Virus record (IMG/VR): IMGVR_UViG_3300030090_002221
Location: 1-30,767 of that record
From: a virus
Direction: 5' to 3' (one strand)
DNA: 30,767 bases
Shown here: one piece after another, positions 16,207 through 27,572 of the stretch
How the letters are laid out: every line of letters starts with the position of its first letter
How positions within the stretch are numbered: the stretch's first letter is position 1
Notes under the pieces: generated by a model
What the model saw: only the letters and a program-made list of their open reading frames with translations
The model's database searches: none
What the model was told of the DNA's origin: nothing
Translations under genes and position numbers: made by a program

Positions 16207-17709
16207 TTATGGTCTTTGAGATTTTCTGTTGTTTGCTGTTTTAAAAGTAAAACTATATTGGATTAATTTATCATTTATTTTAGTTTTCTTTTTATAAGAT
16301 GAATCTGTAAGATTAACAGGTGTAGAAAATTTATTTACTACATTACCTTGTGAAAATGTAAAATATGGATTTATTATATACATCTCATTACTATTAAATA
16401 ATTGTTCTAACCATTGTGCTTCTTCTTCTGTTATATAATCAGTATTTACTTTTATGGTTTCATCTGTTGTAATTAAATAATTTTTGCTTCCCCCTGCTTG
16501 TGCATTTACATTAAATGTATTAGAGTTCCATGTGCCTTTTAATTTTGTATAAGTTTTCCTTTTTGTTTTTAATTGTCTAGTAGATTTTTTCATAAATGTA
16601 TAATAATCCCATGCTCCCCATTTATTCAGCCAAGCTATACGTACAGGTGGATAAAGGCATTCTTTTATAATATATACTTTATATTGCTCCCCTATAACAT
16701 CATTATTATTAGCATGACAATCTATTGAATAATAAGTAAAATCATTTGTATCTATATTAGTTACTGCATTTTGAAAATCACCACTCCAACCTCTTAGATT
16801 AGCAGGATATAACCCTGCAAATATCATTTTAGTTTTAGATCCTATATAATTAGGAATATCGTTACCATTTTTACTATATCCACCATTTATTTGTTCATTT
16901 TCTATAGTAATAGGCGAACCTATTGCCACATCCTCACTTGTTCTTGGTTGTACTGTAATATATGCTATAGTATCTTCTGTACCTGCATCTGCTACTTGAA
17001 AAGAATTAGTCGATTGTTCTAAATCATTAAAAAATGCCATAGTACCATAACAATTTATTGTAGCATATTGTACTTTAGGTGCGTCAGTTATAAAGCCACC
17101 TACTCTAAAATCACCATCTTTTTTTATTATATAATCGTATAAATCATAACCATAACTTGGTAAAGTTGTAGTAGGATATGTCAATACATCTTGATCATTT
17201 AAAACCCCATTAAAAACTAATAAATTGCTTGAACCTGCATAAAAAGGTGCTACACCCATTTGATTTGCAGGTGCAGAACCATCCCAAACACCACCCCCTA
17301 TATATTCAACTTGAAAATCAAATGAAACATATAATATACTATTATCAGAATAAGCATATCTATCTATATTATGGATAGGATGATAGTTACCCATATCATT
17401 ATAGAAATTACCTTGTATTGTTGAAATAGCACTAGGATTAGATGAGTTCATTCCTGAGTAAGTAGGTTTTACTACATTTTCAATAATATTTCCAAAATCA
17501 AAAATTACCCTGCCTGAAGCGTTAGGACTTGCTTTAAAAGTTCCAGTATATAATATGTTACTCATATTCTCAAAATCTGAGACATATATATTACAAATAA
17601 CTTTAGCACCTTCAAATGTTAGTGTTCCTGTATCTTCAAATATTACAAAAGGTATTATCGAACCTGCAGGTAAAGTGTTATATCCAGGTGCTTGTTCTAC
17701 TATTATCAT
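16207..17709 (-). CDS. distal tail protein candidate (500 aa)
   Basis: This 500-residue beta-rich protein shows no enzymatic motif. The C-terminal third has WLNKWGAWDYYTFMKKS, LKTKRKTYTKL and NTDYITEEEAQWLEQLFNS, a combination I associate with a conserved tail protein of Bacteroidota siphophages encoded next to the hub. Position directly before the 939-residue protein and after the gp10-like gene supports a distal-tail or baseplate role. The specific name (Dit) is inferred, not shown. Confidence 0.6.
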   Translation of the reverse strand: MIIVEQAPGYNTLPAGSIIPFVIFEDTGTLTFEGAKVICNIYVSDFENMSNILYTGTFKASPNASGRVIFDFGNIIENVVKPTYSGMNSSNPSAISTIQGNFYNDMGNYHPIHNIDRYAYSDNSILYVSFDFQVEYIGGGVWDGSAPANQMGVAPFYAGSSNLLVFNGVLNDQDVLTYPTTTLPSYGYDLYDYIIKKDGDFRVGGFITDAPKVQYATINCYGTMAFFNDLEQSTNSFQVADAGTEDTIAYITVQPRTSEDVAIGSPITIENEQINGGYSKNGNDIPNYIGSKTKMIFAGLYPANLRGWSGDFQNAVTNIDTNDFTYYSIDCHANNNDVIGEQYKVYIIKECLYPPVRIAWLNKWGAWDYYTFMKKSTRQLKTKRKTYTKLKGTWNSNTFNVNAQAGGSKNYLITTDETIKVNTDYITEEEAQWLEQLFNSNEMYIINPYFTFSQGNVVNKFSTPVNLTDSSYKKKTKINDKLIQYSFTFKTANNRKSQRP

Positions 17710-18254
17710 AATTTAATTTTTTGTTTTATTTCACTTATATTTTCTACAATTTCATCACTTAATATTCCTAACATATCTTGTCCAAATTTTTTAAGCCCTG
17801 CACCTAAAGGTTGCTGAAAAAAAGACAAACTCTTTATTCCATCTCTTTTTATTTTTCTACCTATTAAAAATGCTAAATTTGATACAAATCTTCCTGACTT
17901 TTTATCTCTACCTCTACCTAAACCCTTAGGTTTTATACCTTTTTTCTTAATCCATTTAGATAATGGCTCAGGTGGTGGTTGTTTTGCTCTAAATTTATAT
18001 GGACTTTCTACTTTTCTACCATCATAAGTAGTAAATTCTTGTATTTTTTTATTCCCACTTACACCTTTATCTAAAAAAGCACCATAATCAGCCATATAAA
18101 ATTCAACTACATAACCTGTTCCATCTTTTGTTACATTTGCTCGTATAGTATCTGATAATGCAGTTGATCCTTTTGCTTTTTTTAACCTTTTTTCTGAATC
18201 ACGTACTACTTTTTGAGCAAATTTAGTAAAATATGTATTGAATGCTTGTTCCAT
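17706..18254 (-). CDS. HK97 gp10-like neck/tail completion protein
   Basis: This 182-residue basic protein resembles the gp10-like tail-component family. It has an N-terminal helix (FAQKVVRDSEKRLKKAKG), DYGAFLDKGVSG in the middle, PPPEPLSKWIKKKG after it, and a C-terminal FLIGRKIKRDGIKSLSFFQQP. Such proteins act at the head-tail interface. It overlaps the following tail gene by four bases (ATGA type). Confidence 0.75.
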   Translation of the reverse strand: MEQAFNTYFTKFAQKVVRDSEKRLKKAKGSTALSDTIRANVTKDGTGYVVEFYMADYGAFLDKGVSGNKKIQEFTTYDGRKVESPYKFRAKQPPPEPLSKWIKKKGIKPKGLGRGRDKKSGRFVSNLAFLIGRKIKRDGIKSLSFFQQPLGAGLKKFGQDMLGILSDEIVENISEIKQKIKL

Positions 18255-18781: not shown

Positions 18782-19318
18782 CTATTCTCCTTGCCCTCTT
18801 TGTGGCATTGGTATATCACAAGATTGGAAATCATTATGTACTACTACACTAATAGAAAATACCCAACCTGCTACTAAATTATCAAATCTCTCATTAAATG
18901 GATCTAATGTCATTTCACCATCTATCCAATATTTCGCTTCATTTATATCATTTACTCCCTGCATTGATTGCTGAGTTCCATGCCTTAACATACCAATTAT
19001 ATCAGTACATATCTGTAAGCAGTCACTTAGAACTTCTTGTTCATTTGTTAAATTTACAGATGATTGTATTGCAGTATTAGTCCAACCTAAATCTTCACTT
19101 ACTAAATCCATTACAAATATCTGAAAGTTATAATTTAATTGACTTTGCCCTGTTACCACATTAGTAGGATTTATGTGCATAATAGGAAATAACTCATTTT
19201 TAGCTAAATTAACTTCCCATATATCGCCTGTAGTTGTTGTTTTTATTTGGTAATGGTTATCACCTATATTTTTTAAAGTGTTTACTACGTTATTATATGT
19301 CTTATTATTTACTGCCAT
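18782..19318 (-). CDS. tail terminator/completion protein candidate
   Basis: This 178-residue protein has a helical N terminus (VVNTLKNIGDNHYQIKT), then YNFQIFVMDLV, a long helix (NEQEVLSDCLQICTDIIGML) and a C-terminal FNERFDNLVAGWVFSISV ending with CDIPMP. I recall this arrangement from Bacteroidota phage proteins near gp10-like genes, where tail terminators sit. It follows the frameshifted tail chaperone by overlap and precedes other tail genes. Confidence 0.58.
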   Translation of the reverse strand: MAVNNKTYNNVVNTLKNIGDNHYQIKTTTTGDIWEVNLAKNELFPIMHINPTNVVTGQSQLNYNFQIFVMDLVSEDLGWTNTAIQSSVNLTNEQEVLSDCLQICTDIIGMLRHGTQQSMQGVNDINEAKYWIDGEMTLDPFNERFDNLVAGWVFSISVVVHNDFQSCDIPMPQRGQGE

Positions 19319-19593
19319 TTATTTTTATTTAATTGCACATTTTTTCTTTCTTGCAGATCAGTTTCATAACTTAACCACGTTAAACATTCTAATAGTGGTA
19401 ATTTTGTTATAGTATCTAAATTCACTATCTCACCATTTGCTAATCTATATAAAACACCAAACCAACTCCATTTATCAGCAAAATCCTCTTGGTTATCTAT
19501 CGTTGCTCTTTCATTTTCATTTGCAGATTTTTCTGCGCTAGCTCCATCAAATATAATGGCAAAATCTTCAATAATTTGCTGCCTAAACTCCAA
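19309..19593 (-). CDS. tail chaperone C-terminal extension, made by -1 frameshift
   Basis: This frame has no good start of its own; only a TTG lies at 19593, directly after the T-run. It is in the -1 frame relative to the gene at 19497-20114 and overlaps it by 97 bases. Slippage at the T-run at 19592-19600 would join the first 174 residues of that gene to these 94 codons, beginning LEFRQQIIEDF and giving a 268-residue fusion. This mirrors the lambda gpG/gpGT pair. The extension is mixed acidic and ends basic (NVQLNKNKWQ). No free-standing product is expected. Confidence 0.75.
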   Translation of the reverse strand: MEFRQQIIEDFAIIFDGASAEKSANENERATIDNQEDFADKWSWFGVLYRLANGEIVNLDTITKLPLLECLTWLSYETDLQERKNVQLNKNKWQ

Positions 19594-20114
19594 AAAAAAA
19601 CCAGTGCTGATTGCACTTGCTCTGCAGACATTTTTTTAAATTCTTCTGCCCTAATTATCGTATTACCATCGTAAGCTTGTATAGTATATGCTTCATTTTT
19701 TTTATCAATAACAGGACGATATAATATTGCCATAATTTGTGGCATGTGATCATGTATGCCTAACTTTATATAATGTTCTAAATCTGCAAATTCTCCTATT
19801 GTCATGTCATCTAAATTTGGATGAAAACCATATTCTTTATTATCTACAGTTATAATGTTTTGTAAATTTTCATTTGCTTGTACCTGCATTTCTGCTATTT
19901 TTTTAATAATTACAGAAACATCATGAATAGATAATTGCTTAATTAATTTTTTAGGAATATCAGCTAACGCATTTATATTATCTATAGCGCTATTTGCTTT
20001 ATGCTCATCTTTTACTTTCATTAATTTGATCCATCTTTCTAAATTTACATCTTTCCAATTTTGTATTAGATCAAATTTGTAAGTTTTATTATCCTTTTCG
20101 ATAGATATCTTCAT
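19497..20114 (-). CDS. tail assembly chaperone (short form, gpG-like)
   Basis: This 205-residue mainly helical protein has MKISIEKDNKTYKFDLIQNW at the start and a TIGEFADLEHYIK segment in the middle. Unshifted translation continues past residue 174 (VFF) into a 31-residue tail. At the codons for V172-F173-F174 the message has GGTTTTTTTTTGG, containing the slippery heptamer T TTT TTT in the correct phase for -1 slippage. The short and long products would be the paired chaperones that coat the tape measure before tube assembly. Unlike in lambda, the tape measure gene lies about 7 kb further downstream. Confidence 0.72.
   Translation of the reverse strand: MKISIEKDNKTYKFDLIQNWKDVNLERWIKLMKVKDEHKANSAIDNINALADIPKKLIKQLSIHDVSVIIKKIAEMQVQANENLQNIITVDNKEYGFHPNLDDMTIGEFADLEHYIKLGIHDHMPQIMAILYRPVIDKKNEAYTIQAYDGNTIIRAEEFKKMSAEQVQSALVFFWSLGSKLLKILPLYLMELAQKNLQMKMKEQR
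19591..19602 (-). promoter_or_regulatory. programmed -1 ribosomal frameshift site (T-run)
   Basis: Nine consecutive T (leftward strand; A-run at 19592-19600) lie between GG and GG. The zero-frame codons are GTT TTT TTT TGG, so two Phe tRNAs can slip back one base on T TTT TTT and continue TTG GAG TTT in the frame of 19309-19593. The short overlap and the absence of an ATG in the second frame support programmed slippage. An assembly error in the homopolymer is the alternative. Confidence 0.7.
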
Positions 20115-20211: not shown

Positions 20212-21543
20212 TTATTGTACATAATATCTTCCATAATTACCATCTATTTCATAATACATACGCATAGCCATTGCGTCAGAATAATCAGGTGACCTACCTA
20301 ATATTGCTTTAATTGTATCTTTAGGAATTATTTGTAATTTATTATCCTTATCTGCATCTTTTGTCCTAACTTGTTCTAATTCTTCAATTATATTATTTTT
20401 AATATTTACATCATTACAATCTATACCTATTTGTGCTTTATTGATCAAATCAGACATTTTATAATAACATTGAGTTTTTAAATTTTGATAATTTTCTTTT
20501 TTTAATGCTTTTGCATTGTTTACAAAACCTGTACAACGCAAGAAATCCTTTGCACCCCCACCAACACCATCTTCATCAATTATAATATTACGTAATGGCA
20601 CACTATTTTCTTGTTGCATACGTCTAACTTCGTCCACAACGTCATTTATAGCGCTTTTAAGCAATGTTTTTATTTTTTTAATATGTAACCCCTCCCAATA
20701 CATTATAATCGTTCTATCGCTTCCAAATCGTGCTACATCACAACTAATATATTTGTCTCCCTTAATTCCTTTTTGATCAAATAAGTTTATAATTGCATCA
20801 TAATCAATTAAAGCATCGTTTGTTGCATCATATTCCCAATTACCAAATAGTAATCTTTGTTTTGATAATTCATCTAAAGTTAGTAATTGTTTTTTGTAAT
20901 ATTTGCTTATATAGTCATTATCATCTACTAATGATTGTATAAATTTACGATATGGTTTTTGTTTACCCTCTTTGCTTGGCCGATAATATTGAGTATATAC
21001 CCAATTTTTTGCAGGATTGCAGGTCATTAATAATTTTGGTATAAGATTATATTGATCAAGTTTGTACCTCATTCTACTAGATACTACATTTTTTGCTTTT
21101 TCAGTTATTTGATTTGCCTCATCTATGAAAGCGCCTGTAATTTCAAGTGATCCTAAATTATCAAAATTCTTATCTGATGGATATAAGAATAAATCTTTTA
21201 ATATTATTTCTGATTTGTTATAAAATGTTATGACGTTAGAACTTGCATTAAAATGGTAATGCTCATTTGCGTTTAAATTATACATTTCACACACTTCAAA
21301 AAATGTATTTAATGTAGTTTTCTTTAAACTATCTAATTTAGACCTGCCCATTAGATATCTTGTTTTAGGATTTTTAAGACACATTAATATTAACCATGAG
21401 CAACCTACAAATGATTTGCCACCACCTGCTGCTCCACCAAATAATACCTCTGTAGTTGTTTTATCAAATAAATATTTTATAGCAATTTTTTGAGTATGAG
21501 TAAAATTTGCTATTGCCCAATCGTTTTCAATGTTCAATGCCAT
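20212..21543 (-). CDS. terL: terminase large subunit
   Basis: This 443-residue packaging motor ATPase and nuclease carries Walker A GGAAGGGKS (36-44), Walker B ITGAFIDEAN with Asp141-Glu142, and a coupling motif LLMTCNPAKN (171-180). The RNase H-like nuclease follows, with acidic residues in CDVARFGSD (Asp269), IIDEDGVGGG (Asp323 region) and PDYSDAMAMR (Asp423). It overlaps the small subunit gene by 17 bases. It cuts concatemers and drives DNA into proheads through the portal, which is encoded unusually far away (3694-5565). Confidence 0.96.
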   Translation of the reverse strand: MALNIENDWAIANFTHTQKIAIKYLFDKTTTEVLFGGAAGGGKSFVGCSWLILMCLKNPKTRYLMGRSKLDSLKKTTLNTFFEVCEMYNLNANEHYHFNASSNVITFYNKSEIILKDLFLYPSDKNFDNLGSLEITGAFIDEANQITEKAKNVVSSRMRYKLDQYNLIPKLLMTCNPAKNWVYTQYYRPSKEGKQKPYRKFIQSLVDDNDYISKYYKKQLLTLDELSKQRLLFGNWEYDATNDALIDYDAIINLFDQKGIKGDKYISCDVARFGSDRTIIMYWEGLHIKKIKTLLKSAINDVVDEVRRMQQENSVPLRNIIIDEDGVGGGAKDFLRCTGFVNNAKALKKENYQNLKTQCYYKMSDLINKAQIGIDCNDVNIKNNIIEELEQVRTKDADKDNKLQIIPKDTIKAILGRSPDYSDAMAMRMYYEIDGNYGRYYVQ

Positions 21544-21877
21544 CTATATTAACCTTAATTTTTACAGGTTCTGCTGATGTTAAATCTAATTCTTGTTTTT
21601 CTATATATCCTCTTTTCTTACCTTTTGTTTTTAAATAGAATATAGTTGCAGGTGTATTGCCATTTTTTATTTGCGAATGTAATTGACTTTCTGCAAAATC
21701 AAGTGCTATATTTTCTATTTCTTTAACTTGATCAGCAAATTCTTTATCCTCTTTTAACCATTTATAATATGTACTTCTTGGAATATTTGCTGATTTACAA
21801 GCAACTGTTACCACGCCTAAACTATTTTCTAAAGCTTGTAACATTGCTTCCTTTTTTATATGTCTACTTTTGTCCAT
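21527..21877 (-). CDS. terS: terminase small subunit
   Basis: This 116-residue DNA-recognition partner of the large subunit has an N-terminal helix-turn-helix at about 12-45 (LGVVTVACKSANIPRSTYYKWL) and an acidic helical middle. A segment KTKGKKRGYIEKQE resembles small terminases of the phBC6A51 type. Its start is in a TAATG overlap with the glycosyltransferase stop, and its end overlaps terL. Confidence 0.87.
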   Translation of the reverse strand: MDKSRHIKKEAMLQALENSLGVVTVACKSANIPRSTYYKWLKEDKEFADQVKEIENIALDFAESQLHSQIKNGNTPATIFYLKTKGKKRGYIEKQELDLTSAEPVKIKVNIDGIEH

Positions 21878-23223
21878 TATTTAATGTATTTATCTAATAA
21901 AATATTATAATTATAACCAAACTCATTTAATATACATTTTATTTTTGTTTGTGGAAAAGATTGACTTGCATATCCTAATCTGAATATAAAATTTTTAAAT
22001 TCATTAAGGTCTATTTTATCATAAGTATCCAAGTAATTTTTTATTTTTGTTTTGCTTTCTTCTTTTTTAATACTTTCAAAGACATTTGTTTTATTATCTT
22101 TTACCATATCTTGAAAATATTTATCTATTTTTTTTGCATGAGTATCTAATAATAATTTATCTTTTTCTTTATATTTATATTCTCTTATATTTTTAGTAAG
22201 TATATTTTTAAGAATTTTATATTGTTCTTCTTCTGTTTCAAATAAATAAGGATAATCTTTATCTACTAATTCAGGAAAAGTAACTTTATTAGGCGCTATT
22301 ATTAATTGATTATTCATTATACTTTCTGCGATACTTATACAAAATGTTTCATGTCTACTATTTATTACATTTGCATGACATTTGGATAACTCCTTTAGAT
22401 AATCTTCATGCAAAATAAAAGATTTAACTTCAGTATATGGTTTATTTTCTACTTGTCCTAAATTACCTTTATCTCCTGCAGTTAAAACGACTTTAAATTT
22501 TTCTCCCTCATTATATAATCTATCAAACATAGCAAAAGTATCTTTCCAATTTTTATATCCATCTAATCTATGATTATAAATAAAAGTAAATGTATCATAT
22601 TTTTCTTTGGTTTCTATTTTGTTGCAATATCCACCTATATCTATTATAACCTTTTTTTGTAATTTATCTATTTCTTTTTTATTTAAGATGTCTTTTGCTT
22701 CTTCTATTAGCATATTATAGCAATGTTTGGTATGGAAATAATTTACATCAGCGCACATGCTTCCTATAATCTGATCCAACATTATATGTCGACATGGTAA
22801 ATAATTTGTTAAGCGTTCTAGGCTTCTATGTATTACATAATGGTGATAATTGAATACCTTAGTTCTAAAATCATCTACGATAGTGTCTTGGAAATACCTA
22901 AAATGATGTCCTTGCTCAACTACATTATTCCAAACTATGTCAATAGCATATTTTTTATATATTTCTCTAAACACATTAGTATTAAAATGTATAACTTGGT
23001 GCTTTTTACTTCTTGGAAATGGTATTTGTAATATTTTAATTTTTTGATCAAGATTGTCTTTTATATATTTTCTGTTTTTATCTAATATTAAGAAAAAATT
23101 ATAATTATTTGTTTTTATCAACTCATTACATAAATTTTTTATAATTACATAATTACTATCTGCATTTATATTATCTACAGAAAACATTGGATATATTAAT
23201 ATGTTTAATTTTGTACGTTGCAT
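21877..23223 (-). CDS. GT-B glycosyltransferase (GT4-like)
   Basis: This 448-residue protein has the two-domain GT-B look. The N-terminal Rossmann half begins LNILIYPMFSVDNINADSNY. The C-terminal half has IYNHRLDGYKNWKDTF (215-230), FKVVLTAGDKGN and the sugar-nucleotide motif SRHETFCISIAES, in which Glu292 and Glu300 form EX7E. It then runs through LIIAPNKVTFPELV. The extra 100 C-terminal residues are charged and helical. It is inserted between ParB-like and terS genes, overlapping both, so it is a stable member of the operon. Targets could be phage DNA bases, virion proteins or host glycans; none is proven. Confidence 0.82.
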   Translation of the reverse strand: MQRTKLNILIYPMFSVDNINADSNYVIIKNLCNELIKTNNYNFFLILDKNRKYIKDNLDQKIKILQIPFPRSKKHQVIHFNTNVFREIYKKYAIDIVWNNVVEQGHHFRYFQDTIVDDFRTKVFNYHHYVIHRSLERLTNYLPCRHIMLDQIIGSMCADVNYFHTKHCYNMLIEEAKDILNKKEIDKLQKKVIIDIGGYCNKIETKEKYDTFTFIYNHRLDGYKNWKDTFAMFDRLYNEGEKFKVVLTAGDKGNLGQVENKPYTEVKSFILHEDYLKELSKCHANVINSRHETFCISIAESIMNNQLIIAPNKVTFPELVDKDYPYLFETEEEQYKILKNILTKNIREYKYKEKDKLLLDTHAKKIDKYFQDMVKDNKTNVFESIKKEESKTKIKNYLDTYDKIDLNEFKNFIFRLGYASQSFPQTKIKCILNEFGYNYNILLDKYIK

Positions 23224-25295: not shown

Positions 25296-25644
25296 TTATA
25301 GTTTCAAATTTTTCTATCTTATTAATCATTTCTTGTAGCATTTCATTTAATACTGTCCTATAAGAATTTAATTTAATTGAATTGCTTTTAGTTTCTAAAC
25401 CTGCAAAAAAACCATTAGTCGCTACAGTAAGATTAATAGGTAACAGCATTAACCAATCATACCAATTACTAACTTTGACATTACTTCCATAAGTATTATG
25501 ATATTCAATTATGATATCTAATACCTCTAAAAATTGTTCATATTTTTTTTTCGTAGATGCCTCATTTACAAAGTCTTTTATAGTATATATATACTTTTCT
25601 ATAATTTGTTTGTGTAATGAGTTAGCGTATATTGGTTTTCGCAT
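25288..25644 (-). CDS. hypothetical protein (118 aa)
   Basis: This is an unrecognised, mostly helical protein with a moderately hydrophobic middle (WYDWLMLLPINLTVATNGFF). It overlaps the sigma-like gene by eight bases and follows NinG after a short gap. Its position suggests it belongs to the DNA-metabolism or late-switch group; nothing in the sequence shows an activity. Confidence 0.6.
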   Translation of the reverse strand: MRKPIYANSLHKQIIEKYIYTIKDFVNEASTKKKYEQFLEVLDIIIEYHNTYGSNVKVSNWYDWLMLLPINLTVATNGFFAGLETKSNSIKLNSYRTVLNEMLQEMINKIEKFETIND

Positions 25645-26587: not shown

Positions 26588-26913
26588 TGTATTAATTTAT
26601 TTTTTGGTTTATAATAAGGTATATTTTTTTGTCCTAATGTTTCAGTCATGTAAATGGCATTATCGATAGTTTTTTTATGATCAATTATCCACTTATAAAA
26701 TGTTCTTATATTTAAAAAAGGTTCAAATGTTCCAAATCTAACACCTAAATGAAATGCTGTTTCTATTTCTTCAAATGTTAAATTTTTAAATCTTTTTTCT
26801 GTTTGCAAATCATTTGCTAATATTTTCGCTAATGACGCCATAGTTTTTCCATCAGTTTTTAAACCTAACTCTATAGAGGTTTTTACTATTAATTCATAAC
26901 ATTTTTCTTTCAT
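26584..26913 (-). CDS. hypothetical phage replication-region protein (109 aa)
   Basis: This is a helical protein with the pattern MASLAKILANDLQTEKRFKN, followed by LTFEEIETAFHLGVRFG and NIRTFYKWIIDHKKTI. Similar proteins occur in replication regions of Bacteroidota phages, but I cannot name a function. It overlaps the methyltransferase gene by four bases and the next gene by four. Confidence 0.62.
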   Translation of the reverse strand: MKEKCYELIVKTSIELGLKTDGKTMASLAKILANDLQTEKRFKNLTFEEIETAFHLGVRFGTFEPFLNIRTFYKWIIDHKKTIDNAIYMTETLGQKNIPYYKPKNKLIQ

Positions 26914-27572
26914 AATGATAATATTATTTCTTTACATAATTCATAAGGCACTTTACTTCTTTCATAATTACCTTTTATACCTTGCGTTCCTGTTTGTGAA
27001 CCTCTTGGTGCTGATTCATGACATGGATCACCATTTTTACATATAGGTCTAGGTAACCAACCTTGTAATTTGTTATCTCCAAATAAATCATTATTTGATA
27101 AATGATTAGTCCATATATCTGTTGGTTTCATTCTTTTATCTCCATATTGACAATATGTTACTGTTGCTCTAGGTAATTTTTGCATAAACTTTAATTTTCT
27201 TAATTTACCTCTAGGATTTTCTATAAAAAAATAATCAGGTTGGAAAAAATCTATTATCTCTAATGTTTTTCTAACAATTTGACAACCAACTATTGCTTCT
27301 AATGTTTTTGGTGTATGATCTTTATTCCAATGATGACCAATACTTGCAACACTAAAATAGGTGCATGGTGGACTTGCCCAAACACAGTCTATTTTATCTA
27401 TTCCTTTTTTAAATAAATGTTTTGATAATTCATGACAATCTAAATCTAATATATTTTTTACTAAATCTATATTTTTAAAAGATTTAATATCAGTAGAAAA
27501 AGTTTTATAACCAAATTCCTCTGCTACCTTACTAAAACTCCTACTCCCTGCAAATAATTCTAATATATTCAT
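26910..27572 (-). CDS. compact cytosine-C5 DNA methyltransferase
   Basis: This 220-residue protein resembles the C5-cytosine methyltransferase catalytic domain. Motif I is LELFAGSRSFSKVAEEFGY (4-22); motif IV is WASPPCTYFS with catalytic Cys70; motif VI is FFIENPRG, with Glu118; motif VIII-like TYCQYGDKRMKPTDIW; and a C-terminal KVPYELCKEI like motif X. Typical enzymes are 300-450 residues; here the variable target-recognition region is very short. No restriction enzyme lies beside it, so it looks solitary and protective. It overlaps the replication protein gene by four bases. Specificity cannot be read. Confidence 0.85.
   Translation of the reverse strand: MNILELFAGSRSFSKVAEEFGYKTFSTDIKSFKNIDLVKNILDLDCHELSKHLFKKGIDKIDCVWASPPCTYFSVASIGHHWNKDHTPKTLEAIVGCQIVRKTLEIIDFFQPDYFFIENPRGKLRKLKFMQKLPRATVTYCQYGDKRMKPTDIWTNHLSNNDLFGDNKLQGWLPRPICKNGDPCHESAPRGSQTGTQGIKGNYERSKVPYELCKEIILSL

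Follow-up and report, generated by a model that had tools for sequence, protein, structure and literature searches.

How is a domain encoded in the -1 frame joined to the protein encoded in the zero frame of the same phage gene, and is it the ribosome or the RNA polymerase that makes the shift? The DNA in which we met this question is a viral contig of 30,767 bases with a G+C content of 28.7% (IMG/VR record IMGVR_UViG_3300030090_002221), which was analysed over its whole length and is called the window here; its late genes are carried by the minus strand. The ends of the contig (1-378 and 30420-30767) form an imperfect direct repeat, in which two stretches of 111 and 66 bases (99% and 97%, respectively) are separated by a part that diverges; the genome may thus be circularly permuted or nearly complete, and not a fragment.

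Zero-frame codons 172-175 read GTT TTT TTT TGG (19601-19590, minus strand) and enclose nine consecutive Ts, hereafter T9, at 19600-19592. The initial annotation had recognized these codons and the nine-T run and had placed them at 19591-19602, one base off. From the frames we reproduced the two products that it had proposed, a 205-residue form and a 268-residue fusion that ends in 94 residues of the -1 frame (Table 1). Its statement that the -1 frame opens exactly at the T run had to be corrected, as this frame is already open from approximately 19635, some 12 codons 5′ of the run. Its report that the frame lacks an ATG could be extended: neither ATG nor GTG occurs in the open part of the -1 frame before the run in the window, and the same absence was found in 168 of the 169 relatives checked. 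The TTG that the ORF caller assigned as a start for the -1 frame is the leucine codon at the slip and no start. The sole other run of at least nine As or Ts in the window is a T9 on the plus strand (25543-25551), which reads as A9 in the sense of a minus-strand ORF of 118 aa (25644-25288) and would be slippage-prone in principle.

Table 1. Window coordinates of the slip site, the two frames and the genes discussed with them.
Feature	Position	Strand	Evidence and remarks
T9 slippage run	19592..19600	minus	sense strand CTGG-TTTTTTTTT-GGAG; T9 or T10 in 390/390 relatives
Zero-frame ORF, short product, tail-assembly-chaperone-like N domain	20114-19497	minus	205 aa; PHROG 32199 (E 2e-11) and family alignment
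-1 frame domain	19309..19593	minus	94 residues past the slip (LEFRQQ...NKWQ), stop 19309; PHROG 38404
Fusion-encoding span	19309..20114	minus	268 residues = 174 zero frame + 94 -1 frame
Terminase large subunit, just upstream of the T9 gene	20212..21543	minus	PF03237
178-aa gene, start overlapping the end of the -1 frame	18782..19318	minus	tblastn
182-aa gene, same conserved block	17706..18254	minus	PHROG 29822
Tape-measure-like protein, 638 aa	10539..12455	minus	PHROG tape measure families, best E 2.5e-11

Using the 205-aa protein as a query against IMG/VR, we obtained 18 loci with 53-62% identity, and T9 at the same place together with an open -1 domain was present in all 17 that were sufficiently complete. 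Further relatives were collected with profile queries built from both parts and from distant members (more than 550 matches per profile), and the sample described here comprises the 390 fetched loci that carry both parts, window included; 277 of these differ from one another in the 40 nt on either side of the run. In all 390 loci the reading frame of the second domain is offset by -1 from that of the first. Among the 277 distinct sites, 249 have nine Ts and 28 have ten, and runs of eight or fewer or of eleven or more were never seen. An alignment of relatives, which had been proposed earlier as a check, finds the T run and the frames kept in 390/390 loci, and none of these loci has eight or ten Ts that join the two frames without slippage. 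Because some of the queries held the FF residues of the junction, we ran an independent motif scan of IMG/VR as a control for bias (at least seven Ts followed by AYMATTTAGG). It returned 80 matches, 75 of them family members, and the run was exactly T9 in 75/75, with no T7 or T8; the five non-members had seven Ts (three) or nine Ts (two). On this basis we are nearly certain that the frameshift at T9 is real and conserved.

Among the relatives are two phage isolates, Nonlabens phages P12024S and P12024L, as well as three bacterial genomes with Flavobacteriaceae prophages. The contig of Flavobacterium sp. MFBS3-15 has a G+C content of approximately 50%, and T9 is conspicuous there; two further Flavobacteriaceae genomes with the family locus came from a family-level genome sample. 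A phylum-wide genome sample gave no new prophage, and a single-protein query from the Flavobacterium prophage matched no viral contigs. We infer that the phages are a large family of aquatic (in the case of the window, marine) phages of the Bacteroidota type. Three family contigs (L170, L171 and L172) were assigned to metagenome-assembled genomes that bear the labels Euryarchaeota and Pseudooceanicola, which probably reflects contamination during binning.

Selection on the two frames can be read from the mismatch rates among related sequences. At zero-frame codon positions 1, 2 and 3 these rates are.217,.124 and.378 on the 5′ side of the run, which is the pattern of a normal gene, and they fall to zero within the run. 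On the 3′ side they are.108,.281 and.277, so that change is slowest there at what the -1 frame reads as codon position 2. This pattern shows that the -1 frame is translated and is under purifying selection. The conserved motif of the -1 domain is FFLxFR...WGWFGxMYRL...LTWLSYETDL.

In the explanation that we prefer, ordinary decoding would produce the 205-residue protein, and a fraction of expression events would slip at T9 and produce the 268-residue protein, whose conserved, helical C-terminal domain comes from the -1 frame. The machine that slips is most likely, in the main, the host RNA polymerase: nine to ten rU:dA pairs would fill its RNA-DNA hybrid and realign, one U would be added, and normal translation of the U-inserted mRNA would enter the -1 frame, whereas a transcript that had lost a U would soon run into a stop codon. 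The insertion of one U at the run gives exactly the -1 frame, and the +1 frame, which a deletion would open, stops after 3-17 codons (median 4). The documented threshold for efficient slippage of bacterial RNA polymerase is a run of nine As or Ts (PMC5009743, PMC1088944), and for the polymerase of E. coli a preference for poly-T, and for insertions over deletions, has been described (PMC6260861). If this reading is true, the ratio of the two products would be set by the length of the polymerase hybrid and by nucleotide supply, not by the ribosome.

The main alternative is conventional -1 programmed ribosomal frameshifting as in lambda G/GT, with a tandem slip of tRNA-Phe on T_TTT_TTT, which we consider possible but less probable. 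Every member has this heptamer in frame, as any T9 must, and both U_UU.U_UU.C and U_UU.U_UU.U belong to the shift-prone heptamers of E. coli (PMC4066793). Many tailed phages use ribosomal frameshifting at this step, some of them without stimulators (PMC5009743), and the length of the run could have been kept because longer U runs raise the efficiency of the shift. However, seven Ts, or six plus a C, would do for the ribosome, yet nine or ten are always kept. The run occurs in codon phases 0, 1 and 2 with 19 codon solutions, each with 9-10 Ts (for example, GTT TTT TTT TAC, CGG TTT TTT TTT GCT, GGT TTT TTT TTG and CTT TTT TTT TTC). On a tree built from 98 rows, which used columns adjoining the site and is not fully independent of it, the phase or the length must have changed at least 15 times, and each change keeps nine or more Ts. 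Where TTC ends the run, the start has been extended to give T10. The phase drifts, but the length stays.

In the usual phase, a change of the last T of the second TTT to C would be silent in both frames (TTT/TTC for Phe; TTG/CTG and TTA/CTA for Leu) and would leave T_TTT_TTC. For E. coli ribosomes the tetramer U_UU.C is, if anything, slippier than U_UU.U, and T_TTT_TTC is shift-prone (PMC4066793). This run-breaking, doubly silent TTC was never seen at the site, though TTC accounts for 14-17% of the Phe codons in these genes; the probability of its absence by chance would be approximately 6e-8 if the rows are taken as independent, a value that is overstated and only indicative because the members are related. 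The variation among equivalent shift-prone heptamers that would be expected of a ribosomal slip is missing from the family: T7, T8 and the silent TTC are all absent. Fusion through the -1 frame, the first half of the programmed frameshift named in the initial annotation, is strongly upheld by conservation; the second half, a ribosomal slip at a heptamer, is less in keeping with a kept feature that consists of at least nine Ts in any phase.

The same loci supplied a comparison set of 1,631 other genes, with 1.22 Mb of coding sequence. Only one T run of nine or more outside the family was found in this set, against approximately 17 expected from synonymous shuffles; seven such runs were listed, and six of these are family members that had slipped past the filter. 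Runs of nine or more As number 33 against 128 expected. In-frame T_TTT_TTT heptamers, by contrast, are tolerated and number approximately 100; the count of 102 includes a few from family members left in the set. The purging of 9+ runs from other genes, which serves as a criterion of slippage, is therefore seen in these phage genes, and replication slippage or mutation may account for part of the depletion.

Ribosomal frameshifting is frequently, though not obligatorily, accompanied by a downstream stem-loop or pseudoknot, and no conserved downstream structure was found in 60-nt windows over 99 representatives when nested structures were considered (mean z approximately 0). On the upstream side, a nascent-RNA hairpin that ends 2 nt before the run was rejected as a general feature (p = 0.14 over 99 representatives), but in the clade of the window it is striking, with an excess over synonymous shuffles of approximately 2 kcal/mol. 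Several members have a small perfect hairpin two bases before the run, such as TGTGAT-AGC-ATCACA; in the relative L240 (1955-1987) the perfect arms measure 6 bp. A hairpin of this kind resembles a nascent-RNA hairpin and could aid polymerase slippage.

The preservation of length in any codon phase points to RNA polymerase slippage. Against this reading, T8 could have been tolerated, as the E. coli polymerase slips from seven Ts. Moreover, ribosomal slippage may add to the yield because every T9 or T10 contains an in-frame T_TTT_TTT; a longer U run may make the ribosome shift more readily, and both machines may contribute. Judged by the sequences as a whole, we consider with fair confidence that polymerase slippage is a more likely mechanism than a ribosomal shift at the heptamer only.

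It is very unlikely that two separate genes are present and that the -1 frame is started independently, by reinitiation or coupling. The annotation of Nonlabens phage P12024S, in which a start is placed inside the domain, agrees with such an arrangement, but the near-universal lack of ATG and GTG ahead of the run (168/169) does not, conservation begins at the run itself (FFLxFR), and T9 would need no conservation. Phase variation, in which replication slippage would change the length of the DNA run so that some genomes express a single fused gene and others the short form, is less probable still and is largely refuted. Homopolymers this long are mutable, and tracts from A7 to T9 act as phase-variable switches in some bacteria; a switching tract should, however, show in-frame fused copies, and the 390 loci all have the same -1 relation. 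An error of sequencing or assembly, or a frameshift mutation that recently split one continuous gene, is refuted for the T9 family. Homopolymers are indeed prone to error, and a few predicted viral proteins in BFVD (A0A516L611, A0A6J5N0W0) seem to have both domains in one chain, but none of the 390 loci has one continuous gene, and the same frames and run recur in three bacterial genomes, two phage isolates and contigs that number in the hundreds and differ in origin.

The two PHROG families to which the N domain and the -1 domain belong (32199 and 38404) are both of unknown function. A Pfam search gave nothing above the cut-off, PHROG 166 ('tail protein') was matched weakly (E 0.003-0.1), and profile comparison with lambda G and T (hhalign) revealed no similarity. 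The AlphaFold models are of moderate confidence (pLDDT 71 for the N part and 61 for the C domain); the N part is modelled as a mix of small beta hairpins and helices, and the C domain is predicted to be all-helical. An Ig-like capsid or tail decoration is argued against by these modelled folds and the helical C domain. A fold search of the PDB gave no match. In BFVD, the N model has strong matches to unnamed phage proteins and a weaker match to A0A8S5V8Z8, which is named 'Tail assembly chaperone protein' there (E 5e-3, probability 0.98, TM 0.41).

Because homology to known chaperones was not found, we infer the chaperone role from architecture and neighbourhood, and on these grounds a tail-chaperone-like role is likely. 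The initial description as a tail chaperone agrees with the frame architecture, but the Pfam, lambda G/T profile and PDB searches gave it no match, and the gene has the large terminase, not the tape measure gene, as its neighbour. Chaperones of the lambda type bind the tape measure with the N domain and the tail tube with the C domain, and they are absent from the virion. The two products of the T9 gene would probably act together as such a pair, in the manner of lambda G/GT.

A large terminase homologous to that of the window was present in only 37 of the 245 relatives with flank, and another type is often found. The constant neighbours among relatives are the downstream genes: of the 235 relatives with enough flank, tblastn detected the 178-aa gene in 228, on the same strand and approximately 300 nt past the Ts, whereas 200 have the 182-aa gene. 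We take the product of the latter to resemble head-tail completion proteins. The tape-measure-like gene lies approximately 7 kb downstream of the T9 gene. Elsewhere in the window, a portal protein of 623 aa (PF04860, 3694-5565) has its gene downstream of that for the major capsid protein, which is unusual for tailed phages. A ParB-like gene and the small terminase flank a glycosyltransferase-like gene (PF00534, just above the cut-off, 21877-23223), and a C-5 cytosine DNA methylase-like gene (PF00145) is found at 26910-27572.

Taken as a whole, the explanation of a dual-product structural-assembly gene, whose fusion would arise mainly through a slip of the host RNA polymerase at T9 and whose products would serve as a chaperone pair, seems to us moderately probable. 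We would give an even chance to the broader proposal that, throughout this family of tailed phages, slippage of the host RNA polymerase on a T9-T10 run of fixed length yields the tail-assembly pair and takes the place of the ribosomal frameshift on which lambda and most other long-tailed phages rely. Since only the length of the homopolymer is kept, in every codon phase, the family would be a clean natural case for a role of the polymerase in DNA phages. Furthermore, two PHROG families of unknown function would acquire a functional meaning, and a correction is obtained for many aquatic phages whose annotation overlooks the C-terminal domain or lists it as a gene of its own.

Textbooks attribute the frameshift in tail assembly genes to the ribosome. 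Our literature search found no earlier description of the T9 family, nor any of slippage in the tail genes of phages, and the relevant passages of a review contain no mention of polymerase slippage in tailed-phage structural genes. The T9 gene resembles lambda G/GT in its short protein with a -1 frameshift extension, as seen in the frames and conservation of 390 loci, and in its place in a late structural operon. It differs in its site, which is a T9-T10 run and not a heptamer such as GGGAAAG, and has no detectable sequence or profile similarity to lambda G/T; the lambda gene lies between the major tail protein and tape measure genes (order checked), whereas the T9 gene follows the terminase. 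The closest known pair is gene 38/39 of the Nonlabens phages P12024S and P12024L, which is homologous, has T9 and the -1 offset and lies downstream of the large terminase, but has been annotated as two separate hypothetical proteins and is approximately 31% identical over the matched part. With the transcriptional slippage known at 9A/9T in Thermus dnaX, IS elements and Shigella mxiE and spa13, the family shares a conserved homopolymer of at least nine As or Ts, overlapping frames, independence of codon phase and the purging of 9+ runs from other genes. Most IS elements have A in the sense strand, in contrast to the T found here, and the present, putative case concerns an assembly gene of tailed phages.
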